Origin: an uncultured Coriobacteriaceae bacterium
Lineage (GTDB): Bacteria; Actinomycetota; Coriobacteriia; Coriobacteriales; Coriobacteriaceae
DNA length: 64,000 nt
NCBI GenBank assembly: GCA_944322305.1
Contig: CALUOP010000003.1
Location: forward strand, 62,001-126,000
Direction of reading: 5' to 3'
Shown: positions 13,725 through 54,143 of the stretch, in pieces
Numbering within the stretch: the first letter of the stretch is position 1
Layout: every line of letters starts with the position of its first letter
The notes under the pieces: generated by a model
What the model was told of the DNA's origin: nothing
Seen by the model: the letters and a program-made list of their open reading frames with translations, nothing else
Database searches by the model: none
Program-made: the position numbers and the translations under genes

Positions 13725-13800
13725 CATTCGCCATTGGGGACGGGTACGGATGACGGGTGCTTCGCACTCTGCCATCCGTACCCGTCCCCAATGGCGAATG
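13725..13800. repeat. REPIN-like inverted repeat
   Basis: Two perfect 28-bp arms (13725-13752 and 13773-13800) flank 20 bases. Each arm contains CCATTGGGGACGGGTACGG. The same core forms a second inverted repeat at 25097-25162. GGGGACGGGT-type palindromes resemble REP sequences mobilised by RAYT transposases; no RAYT gene is in this window. It begins 14 bases beyond the RF-like gene stop. Confidence 0.7.
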
Positions 13801-21944: not shown

Positions 21945-22110
21945 GTTCCGCATGCGTTTTGTATCAGCTGCTTGGTTCCGCATGCGTTTTGTAGCAGCCC
22001 GCGCGTTCCGCATGCGTTCTGTATCAGCTGCAAGCCAATAATGGCCGCCAGCCGACACGCGGTGCATGCGGAACCACGCGGTTGATACACAATGCATGCG
22101 CAACGGCGCG
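21945..22110. repeat. 30-bp-period repeat array A
   Basis: This gap of 289 bases between the convergent trmL and thiE genes has no gene. Three tandem 30-bp units start with GTTCCGCATGCGTTTTGTA at 21945, 21975 and 22005. After 22050 two units in the opposite orientation follow (GCGGAACCACGCGG-TTGATACACAATGCAT from about 22069). Reverse-complemented, the first set reads CTGATACAAAACGCATGCGG, which aligns with the TGATACGAA-N-GC box of arrays B and C. Two 17-18 bp copies of TTTATTTGGCGCA lie just left of it. Confidence 0.75.
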
Positions 22111-25081: not shown

Positions 25082-25162
25082 CACGCCAGCGCACCTGCCA
25101 TTGGGGACGGGTACGGATGGCAGGTGCGCTGGCGTGTGCCATCCGCACCCGTCCCCAATGGC
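25082..25162. repeat. REPIN-like element with two mutually exclusive hairpins
   Basis: Hairpin 1: perfect 20-bp arms at 25082-25101 and 25117-25136 (loop 15). Hairpin 2: 26-bp arms at 25097-25122 and 25137-25162 with one mismatch (loop 14), sharing CCATTGGGGACGGGTACGG with the element at 13725-13800. The two stems use overlapping bases and cannot form together. The element sits in the thiF-thiG spacer of the thi operon. Confidence 0.7.
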
Positions 25163-42777: not shown

Positions 42778-43229
42778 AACCTGCAGCACGTCGCCCGCAC
42801 CGCCGGGGTACCTGCCTGCGCCCGGCGGGACGCGTCGCCCGTACCGTGCATGTCCGCCCGCTCGGGAGGGGCACCCCGGCCGCACCGTTACCCGCCGACA
42901 CCAAAATTGCGTCGCATCTTCGCGCCACCTAGCGATGCCAGAGCCGCCTTTCTGCAAACCTCCCGATTAAAGTGCACAACACACGCGAAATCCGGCATAG
43001 CCTTTACGGGAGAGTGCGATTTACCAGGCGTTTTCCTAGCGGCAAGCCAATGGCAACCCGGCAAGCCCCTTATGTTGTGCACTTTAACGGCGGGGTTTGC
43101 ACAACGGCCGGAGCGCCTTCCCCACGCACGCATAAAAGGGGCTGGAAGCACCGCTCCCCACCCTTGCCTGGGCGCTCCATCCGCGCTGTGCATGCCCGCG
43201 CGCTCGGGCGGAGCGCCTCAGCCGTGCCC
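42778..43229. repeat. Gene-free gap with nested inverted and direct repeats
   Basis: No gene is seen between the convergent HsmA-like and antiporter genes. Arms of about 28 bases at 42952-42981 and 43073-43102 (TGCAAACC...TTAAAGTGCACAACA and complement, three mismatches) face each other across about 90 bases. Outside them a direct repeat begins GTGCATG(T/C)CCGC(C/G)CGCTCGGG at about 42846 and 43189. The layout resembles a small mobile inverted-repeat element or a pair of repeat units in opposite orientation. Confidence 0.5.
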
Positions 43230-45729: not shown

Positions 45730-46365
45730 GCAATCATCGCATCCGTCCGAACCTGGCAAGCAATGACGGCATCCACGCAAACGCGACGGGCAACGGTCGC
45801 GCTCGCTCCGGGCGCGGTTAGCAAATCGCCCGCTCAAACGAACGCGGCGAGCGAAATGCGAGCCAATGCGAAACCCGCGGGCGAGAATCTCGCTGACACG
45901 AACCCGCCGGGCAAGCATGCCACTCATACGAATGGCATGCGCAAGAACGTCACTCATACGAACCCATTGGGCGAGAACGTCACTCATACGAACGGTTTGG
46001 GCGAAAAACACATCGATACGAAGCCGTTGCGCGAAAAGCGCACTCGTACGAGCGAGCTTCTCGCCCAACGCGCGCCGTGGGCCGAGCTTGGCGAGAAAAC
46101 GCCAGGTAAGCGGGAAGGCCGGACCACGATGTGCACCCGCGTGCTCGGAGCACCCTTCGTATCAACGCATTTTTCGCCCAACAGGCTCGTATCAATTCGA
46201 TTTTCGCCCAAACCTGTCGTATGAGTGTCGTTCTCGCCCAATGGCGTCGTATCGGTGTAATTCTCGCCCAACGGCGTTGTATCAGTGTCGTTCTCGCCCA
46301 GGCTGTGCGCACCAGCGTCGTTTTCGCCGTCCAGGCCGCATCGGCGCCGCTCTCGCCCGACGCGC
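45730..46365. repeat. 30-bp-period mirrored repeat array B
   Basis: Units start every 30 bases from 45881 (45881, 45911, 45941, 45971, 46001, 46031) with more decayed units back to about 45730. The pattern is GGGCGAGAA, about 6 variable bases, TCATACGAA, about 6 variable bases. From 46156 the same unit runs in the opposite orientation (46156, 46186, 46216, 46246, 46276, 46306, 46336), reading (T)TCGTATCA...TTCTCGCCC. Units near the centre are best conserved. The centre (46067-46155) holds the palindrome GTGCTC-G-GAGCAC. Both halves give decapeptide repeats (such as LGENVTHTNP) on either strand, but no ribosome site or intact gene explains them. Confidence 0.85.
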
Positions 46366-52826: not shown

Positions 52827-52902
52827 GCCCCCATCGTCTAGTGGCCGAGGACATCGCCCTTTCAAGGCGGCAACACGGGTTCGATTCCCGTTGGGGGTGC
52901 CA
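52827..52902 (+). tRNA. tRNA-Glu (anticodon TTC)
   Basis: A complete cloverleaf: acceptor GCCCCCA with TGGGGGT (one G-T end pair), TAGTGG in the D loop, anticodon loop CTTTCAA with TTC, T arm GGGTTCGATTCCC, and encoded CCA at the 3' end. A terminator follows. Confidence 0.95.
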
Positions 52903-52949: not shown

Positions 52950-53585
52950 CATGCGACAGCCGTATGCCGGCGAGGGCGACTGCCCGCAGGGTGACCCCAC
53001 GCCGGCGAAACGCCCCGCAGGATGGGCCTTACGCCGGTACGACGCCCCGCGCGGTGCAAGCCCCGCTCCACCCGCGTCATCCCCTCTTGTTGCGCGCAAG
53101 CCTGCACACATGCCTTTCTTGCACGAGCGCAATGCGCGAGAGCCGTGCTCATACGGACCCAGTGCGCGAAAACCATGCCCATACGAGCATGATGCGCGAA
53201 ACCTTCACTGATACGAAAGCGTTGGGCGAGAATCACGTTCGTACGGACCCGATTCTGTCATCTAAGGCCGGAATACCGCTTGAGCCCAACTAACAGCTGG
53301 CCGATAACCGCCCGTTGCCCGCACAAACGACATCTAACAGGGAAGCTCTTTTCGTATCAGTAACGTTTTCGCCCAGACAACTCGTATCAGTAACGTTTTC
53401 GCCCAAGCGCTTCGTATCAGCGATGTTCTCGCCCAAAGCGTTCGTATGGGTGCGGCTTTCGCCCGACGCGCTTCTTATGAATGCGGCTCTCGCCCATGCG
53501 CTTCGTATGGATGCTTTTTTCGCCCAAGCCACTCGTATGAGGTCGTTTTTCGCCCAACACACTCGTACGGGGTTGTTTTTCGCAC
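52950..53585. repeat. 30-bp-period mirrored repeat array C (53134-53583)
   Basis: The gene-free gap between tRNA-Glu and a tetR gene. Four units in one orientation start at 53134, 53164, 53194 and 53224 (GCGCGAAA...CTGATACGAA...). From 53351 about eight units run the other way (53351, 53381, 53411, 53441, then about 30-31 apart to 53583), reading CTCGTATCAGTAACGTTTTC then GCCCA. The last unit ends 3 bases from the tetR stop codon. Between the halves, 53313 reads GTTGCCCGCACAAACGACATC-like, which is an array D unit. The region before 53130 has three looser GCCGGCGA/GCCGG repeats. Confidence 0.85.
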
Positions 53586-54143
53586 CTACAAGTGTGCGTT
53601 GCACACGTCGTTCACGATGAAGGGGACGAACTCGGCGATGGTCATGCCCTGTGGGTCGCGCAGCCACGCCACCACCACCGACAACAGGCCCGAAAGGTAA
53701 AACTCGTGCAGAAGGGCCGCCTCACGCGGGGAAAGCGCCCGCTCGGACACGAGGAACCGATCCAGGATGGGTGCCAGCACTTGCTTGAACCGCGAGGCAA
53801 AGGCCGGGTCGCCGCGGTCGCCCAACAGCACCAGGAACTGCGCGCTGTAGCGGCGCGCAAGCTCCAGGAACACGCCCATGTGCTCGGAGAAGTCCGGCTC
53901 GCTTTCGCGCAGGAGACGGCGATTGATGAGCTGTTCCAGCACGTCGAGCAGGTTGTCCTCTATCTGGGCCAGCACGTCGTAGATGTCTTTAAAGTACAGG
54001 TAAAAGGTGGCGCGGTTGTAGCCGGCGCGATCGGTGATCTGCTTTACCGTGATCTTCTCGATCGGCTCCTGGGCGTACAGCTCCCAAAACGCCTGGCGGA
54101 TGTTGGCCTTGGTCTGCTCGGTTACCTGCGGCTGCTTGTTCAT
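53586..54143 (-). CDS. TetR/AcrR-family regulator of the adjacent ABC exporter
   Basis: A 185-residue regulator with the helix-turn-helix ITVKQITDRAGYNRATFYLYFKDIYD and a TetR_C-type ligand domain. It is divergent from the ABC exporter genes at 54421 and 55138, with two palindromic sites in between, so it probably represses them. The ATG at 54143 follows ACGGAGTGCG; the frame extends upstream without a better start. Confidence 0.87.
   Translation of the reverse strand: MNKQPQVTEQTKANIRQAFWELYAQEPIEKITVKQITDRAGYNRATFYLYFKDIYDVLAQIEDNLLDVLEQLINRRLLRESEPDFSEHMGVFLELARRYSAQFLVLLGDRGDPAFASRFKQVLAPILDRFLVSERALSPREAALLHEFYLSGLLSVVVAWLRDPQGMTIAEFVPFIVNDVCNAHL

Follow-up and report, generated by a model that had tools for sequence, protein, structure and literature searches.

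Mirrored 30-bp intergenic arrays of a Coriobacteriaceae genome as probable target elements of a putative nuclease-like protein

The intergenic DNA between a tRNA-Glu gene and a tetR-family regulator gene of an uncultured Coriobacteriaceae bacterium carries a mirrored array of 30-base units (array C), and the question it raises is what kind of element such an array represents. The window, meaning the whole stretch of 64,000 nucleotides that was analysed, spans positions 62001-126000 of contig C3 in a 2.35-Mb draft genome (G000); the other genomes of the genus that were compared are G201, G166 and G180. From the distribution of the arrays, the spacing of their arms and the gene that they flank, we hypothesize, with a probability of about 0.6, that array C is one of the dispersed DNA targets in a system made up of a gene and its elements, REPIN/RAYT-like and with an unrelated protein. 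The locus is arranged as follows.

52827-52902, plus strand: tRNA-Glu gene, flanking (Rfam match)
53136-53245, minus strand: array C left arm, 4 units found by pattern and array-B-profile scans; in minus-strand reading, TCGTAT lies toward the centre and TTYTCGCCCA toward the outside
53246-53352, no strand: array C centre, gap 113 bp
53353-53583, plus strand: array C right arm, 8 units found by pattern and array-B-profile scans
53586-54143, minus strand: tetR-family regulator gene, flanking (domains PF00440 and PF14278 confirmed)

The mirrored layout described in the first-pass annotation is genuine. Its four left units at exact 30-base spacing were borne out (minus-strand starts at 53136, 53166, 53196 and 53226), and the roughly eight complementary units that it placed near a gene end correspond to eight plus-strand units (starts at 53353, 53383, 53413, 53443, 53474, 53504, 53534 and 53564) in 30-base steps, one of them 31; the final unit ends at 53583 and the tetR ORF starts 2 bases on, at 53586. 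Both neighbouring genes had been named correctly; nothing was found that links the tetR regulator to the array system, and the tRNA was the sole match of an Rfam search, which returned none for the arrays. The type D unit that had been read in the centre was not recovered: the centre instead holds CATCTAA twice in direct orientation and, beside the left arm, a dyad whose right half is degenerate (CGTACGG...). The same centre variant is also found in the array at L062, with a looser likeness at L067, L069 and L064.

Array C had been proposed to form one family with a second array of the window:

45851-46356, no strand: array B, of the same family as array C, with left arm, dyad at 46031-46064 (units sharing TCGTACGA), gap of 113 and right arm

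A profile built from array B alone recovers all 12 array C units at 17.5-32.8 bits, above shuffled sequence (a mean of 0.28 matches per shuffle at >= 8 bits in dinucleotide-shuffled array C), and the family assignment stands. With up to 2 mismatches, the pattern CGTATN8TTYTCGC has 40 matches in the 64-kb window against 6.8 +/- 2.7 expected; with at most 1 mismatch it has 207 in the whole of G000, against 16 for the reversed pattern used as control, and these group into about 20 mirrored arrays, array C among them. The box of this species is bipartite and oriented (TCGTATGAGTGCGNTTYTCGCCCA), and handedness is constant in every array: left units lie on the minus strand and right units on the plus strand, with TCGTAT inward and TTYTCGCCCA outward. 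In most arrays one arm starts with the dyad GCGARAAN6TCGTACGAN6TTYTCGC, which is two boxes sharing TCGTACGA; it gives the array a polarity and is found on either side. Among 344 units compared, both boxes are conserved, while the sequence that separates and follows them varies much more freely; adjacent units resemble each other somewhat more (0.458) than units further apart (0.403).

All of the arrays are intergenic, lying between divergent, convergent and tandem gene pairs. That array C adjoins a tRNA gene was correctly noted, but the suggestion of tRNA genes as an insertion hot spot does not hold as a general rule, given that the arrays occupy all intergenic settings; besides array C, only two examined array loci (L060 and L062) have a tRNA close by. 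Since many arrays sit at orthologous positions in G000 and G201 (L056/L120, L062/L121, L067/L119, and both L068 arrays/L111), with shared flanking genes about 70-90% identical, most are not recent insertions. One probable empty site was found, where G201 has a 13-bp intergenic gap at the place matching the element at L067:876-1000. On one side, synteny between the two genomes is lost at arrays or close to them (L055/L118 and L058/L117), which suggests rearrangement breakpoints at arrays.

Among named genome contigs, the box was found beyond G000 only in the same genus, in MAGs of uncultured bacteria labelled Coriobacteriaceae or Collinsella; the sole further match fell in a 10-bp microsatellite of a Ktedonobacterales MAG. 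A phage or plasmid origin of the arrays was rejected, as IMG/VR held no array match and neither IMG/VR nor phages a relative of the protein described below. Other familiar candidates also fell away: a link to the chromosome origin (on the window's contig, more than 100 kb separates dnaA from the closest array found), a defence system (PADLOC gave no convincing match), a CRISPR or known RNA element (each unit is a degenerate 30-mer holding two short boxes, and the repeats are not identical), and a coding repeat of 10 codons, in which case the variable positions would not lack codon spacing, with a Y at position 17 between fixed positions, nor the frame be broken by the dyad and by 31-bp steps, nor the arms lie on opposite strands.

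The distance between the two arms follows a simple rule. Measured from the innermost minus-unit start to the innermost plus-unit start, minus 14, arm gaps fall at 104, 112-114, 121-125, 133, 136, 143-144, 154-155 and 166-167 bp, plus 70 and 39-40 bp; they thus lie mostly between 104 and 167 bp in 10.5-bp steps, which are whole turns of DNA. When periods between 5 and 40 were scanned over 43 gaps, the best fit came at 10.5 bp (R = 0.81); none of 5000 smoothed (jittered) sets was as good, and the same holds for the 18 distinct gap values alone. Between orthologous arrays the gap shifts by about whole turns (114 to 125 or 144; 113 to 144). The centre sequences themselves are mostly unrelated between arrays; the arrays at L061, L065 and L066 have a 143-bp gap and a similar centre sequence in common, and TATGCGTYTTT-like motifs are common to other centres, so that the centres form subfamilies. 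At the variable positions, mirrored units are no more complementary (0.404) than non-mirrored units (0.391), which gives no hint that a stem is selected for. Helical phase of this kind is the mark of two arms whose bound proteins must share one face of the DNA duplex, and because whole-turn spacing comes without extra mirrored complementarity, the arrays point to a looped protein-DNA complex and not to an RNA hairpin.

The first-pass annotation had proposed looking for co-occurrence of the arrays with one protein family, and such a family was found, represented by a nuclease-like protein of about 356 aa. On contig C7 of G000 two arrays lie 2 kb apart with a single gene between them (L068:7308-8378; 356 aa), and orthologs lie between two arrays in G201, G180 and G166 as well, that is in all four genomes compared for the genus (the 30-bp arrays of G166 were located by an unbiased periodicity scan). 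The chromosomal context of the gene is one in G000 and G201 and another, unrelated, in G166 and G180. Within each genome, the arrays beside the gene and those dispersed elsewhere have one species-specific box in common: TCGTATGAG...TTYTCGCCCA in G000 and G201, CCGTATCG...TTTTTGCGCA in G180, and TAGGATCG...TTYTCGCC in G166, where TAGGATCGN6TTYTCGCC has 70 matches vs 6 in the sister genome G180.

The protein is weakly detectable as PD-(D/E)XK-like (Vsr/DUF559/MTES_1575-like), and it is on this likeness that we call it a putative nuclease. Its C-terminal part has sub-threshold Pfam matches only (E 0.001-0.27), which recur across members, the best scores being 19.6 bits for MTES_1575 (PF18741; cut-off 38.2) and 18.5 for DUF559 (PF04480; cut-off 20.6); no model matched the N-terminal part of about 200 aa, scans of Pfam, NCBIfam and PHROGs gave no transposase match, and a sequence search for a relative of solved structure found none. 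The four orthologs have the invariant motifs SPME, TPDLxW and EYDS..H and the invariant residues E215, D259, E270, D272 and H277 (D259, E270 and D272 in G180 numbering), for which a catalytic role is putative. Near the array gene, a 2.8-kb segment (L068:11870-14643 vs L111:11226-14001) is 99.5% identical between G000 and G201 where the surrounding genes are about 70-85% identical; it carries genes starting with an ABC-transporter-like ATPase and is a probable recent transfer.

A comparison of G166 with G180 bears on how gene and boxes change together. The flanks of the gene cassette are about 95% identical on both sides (94.6%), whereas the cassette proteins are 54.6% identical, and 4-fold degenerate sites are 36% identical vs 82-99.6% in neighbour genes; because even these sites are only 36% identical, the difference reflects replacement by a diverged allele and not faster protein evolution. 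The gene and its flanking arrays are accordingly different alleles in the two genomes. At two unlinked sites (L258/L263 and L260/L125) the flanks are 90-92% identical, the box differs (TAGGATCG in G166, CCGTATCG in G180), and what lies between these flanks can hardly be aligned; the older box is retained at other G166 arrays (L261, L091, L074 and L106). That dispersed sites follow the gene allele is the strongest evidence for recognition in trans, and we infer that dispersed sites may have been converted in place to the new box. At the level of sequence, both the two-arm geometry and the coupling of gene to box are established.

The array gene belongs to a larger family, with relatives in 64 of 65 Coriobacteriaceae genomes and 2 to 8 copies where present; the sole annotated member that was looked at is labelled a hypothetical protein. 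Several paralogs have mirrored elements of their own. Paralog L185 has multi-unit arrays with the box TTYYTCTCGNCAGG on both sides, and this box is dispersed in G000 (121 matches vs 8 for the control); paralog L197, in G166, lies between multi-unit arrays of CTCTCCCAAGCCGGGAC; and single mirrored pairs flank L184, L188, L219, L232, L234, L235 and L237. Paralog L186 (G000, contig C1, 58 kb) is accompanied by comparable pairs, with a neighbouring gene between it and the upstream pair, and the window holds a match to them:

42946-43108, no strand: mirrored pair element with box CAAACCTCNGNGTTAACGTGC, matching the L186 pair elements with 3 mismatches on each side

The arms of this pair are 36 nt long, 83% complementary and 91 nt apart. 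The box of L188 (type G) forms about 22 pairs in G000, at a spacing of 109-110 bp, and none in the three sister species; within these pairs the internal AAGTAG/CTACTT and TACCTGCGCTTTT are conserved at near-fixed positions, and there are subfamilies of similar copies. The motif TACCTGCGCTTTT also occurs in 6 of 35 B-type centres (combined p 9e-5) and is absent from array C; its presence in some array centres hints weakly at a link between pair elements and arrays.

When flanks were limited to 1.5 kb and only exact 10-mers were counted, 8 of the 44 family genes had a mirrored 10-mer common to both flanks, against 1 of the 146 control genes (Fisher p = 3.6e-5), the other 36 family genes having no mirrored flanking pair under this test. 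The test detects one of the four array-gene orthologs, missing most of them because the boxes are degenerate, and the flanking arrays of the four orthologs rest on pattern scans. One C. aerofaciens homolog has no exact mirrored 9-mer common to both flanks.

Under the reading that we favour, the protein would bind the oriented boxes, copies of it on both arms would come together in a single synaptic complex with the centre looped out, and the elements would spread, and old ones be replaced in trans, through copying or conversion assisted by the nuclease, as is thought for RAYTs and REPINs; the elements would then persist as binding sites in intergenic DNA. The nearest known system is REPIN-RAYT, or REPtron, in which REP doublets occur with a REP-associated tyrosine transposase thought to disseminate the REPINs, and in which the GI REPINs of P. 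fluorescens have 71 bp between 16-mers (PMC3116915, PMC2817692). The likeness is extensive: inverted repeat elements stand on either side of a single gene; many mirrored doublets are dispersed in intergenic DNA, with conserved ends, a fixed end-to-end distance (109-110 bp in type G) and a free interior; different paralogs have repeat classes of their own, with clusters beside the gene; and the dispersed elements are cognate, carrying gene-specific sequence. Unlike RAYTs, however, the protein has no match to Y1/HUH tyrosine transposases (IS200/IS605-like) and a weak PD-(D/E)XK signal instead; the box is bipartite and asymmetric except at the dyad, is not a palindromic hairpin and has no compensatory pairing beyond the boxes; and the arms are multi-unit 30-bp arrays with spacing in helical phase on double-stranded DNA. 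The system works like REPIN-RAYT but lacks two of its defining features, the transposase type and the palindromic units. Vsr, DUF559 (PF04480) and MTES_1575 (PF18741) proteins are alike in the weak matches to the same C-terminal region and in the conserved D-L-x-W ... E-Y-D-S ... H, and differ in that all matches fall under curated cut-offs, about 200 N-terminal residues are unmatched, and cognate arrays flank the gene here.

The main rival, which we consider somewhat unlikely, holds that the arrays are chromosome-organising or regulatory operators, bound by a domesticated protein without catalytic activity, whose role would be to bind or bridge DNA and so to loop intergenic stretches or tether arrays that lie far apart, the flanking arrays serving to autoregulate the gene. 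Looped repressor operators such as gal and lac consist of two oriented site groups in fixed helical phase. The arrays resemble them in having two oriented groups about 110 bp apart and in the phasing that is a hallmark of loop-forming operators, and both the intergenic position of every array and the retention of many arrays at orthologous sites, despite the divergence of their flanking genes, would fit. The arrays differ from gal and lac in having typically three to ten sites per arm in 30-bp steps and in occupying about 20 loci that are not tied to promoters. Operators would also not readily account for the presence and absence of closely similar elements between species, as at the 13-bp gap of G201, or for type G pairs that abound in G000 and are lacking in its sister species, and the wholesale replacement of box and gene is unexpected for a conserved housekeeping system.

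It is quite improbable that the arrays represent the MITE-like termini of an ordinary transposon that an unrelated transposase mobilises, with the nuclease-like gene a passenger or chance neighbour. Like MITEs, the elements are short, non-coding and dispersed in intergenic DNA, with inverted ends formed by mirrored terminal boxes; unlike them, their interior is not conserved between most copies, the arms are arrays, and in the loci examined we noticed neither a full-length transposon nor a transposase-coding element bounded by such ends. The same protein family, moreover, recurs between cognate arrays for different boxes, and allele and box change together. An RNA-level role, in which the mirrored arms form a long transcribed hairpin acting as terminator, attenuator or RNase III substrate, is less probable still: the arms are indeed inverted repeats, with 72% complementarity across 67 nt, but this complementarity comes from the boxes, and the comparison of mirrored with non-mirrored units led us to reject the hairpin, against which also stand a 10.5-bp phase that is a property of double-stranded DNA, the lack of an Rfam match and the lack of any preferred gene orientation. 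Neutral tandem duplication mirrored by chance has next to no probability, for while the greater similarity of neighbouring units indicates that local duplication does occur, the boxes are conserved over about 20 unlinked arrays with the remainder nearly random, handedness, dyad and helical phase are constant, and the reversed-pattern control, unit comparison and phase already contradict it.

Returning to the reading of array C as a target element, we rate the system as categorically new in kind, its function being predicted from sequence; full-text searches turned up no description of such a system, a result that covers open-access papers only and so is not proof. More tentatively, it is possible that a PD-(D/E)XK-like family, of which most genomes in one bacterial family carry 2-8 copies, arrived independently at a REPIN-like dependency in which each protein recognises its own mirrored elements, and that replacement of the cassette by a diverged allele converts unlinked dispersed elements to the specificity of the incoming allele, which would amount to a homing-like drive on intergenic arrays. 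If the target-element reading is right, REPIN/RAYT-style element populations tied to a single protein arose at least twice from unrelated proteins, such element-protein partnerships would be a general feature of bacterial genomes, and a class of intergenic DNA in Coriobacteriaceae, which are gut bacteria, would be explained. The match of box to allele offers a ready set of protein/DNA-site pairs for the study of specificity change in nuclease-like proteins, and the 10.5-bp rule a direct laboratory test of looping.

The window also carries repeats of other kinds, the first of them being:

21945-22110, no strand: array A, of a second mirrored family (TTCCGCATGCRYTYTGTATCA), with units facing the other way relative to arrays B and C

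Its units have 35 matches in G000 and 23 in G201; the gap of array A is 77 bp from unit to unit, and most other type A copies have 47 or 77 bp. No cognate gene was found for type A arrays. At 13725-13800 and 25082-25162 lie near-perfect hairpins containing GCCATTGGGGACGGGTACGGATG, and the sole control match of the 10-mer flank test, near L061:8739-9924, shares the 10-mer ACCCGTCCCC; these repeats presumably resemble ordinary palindromic REP elements.
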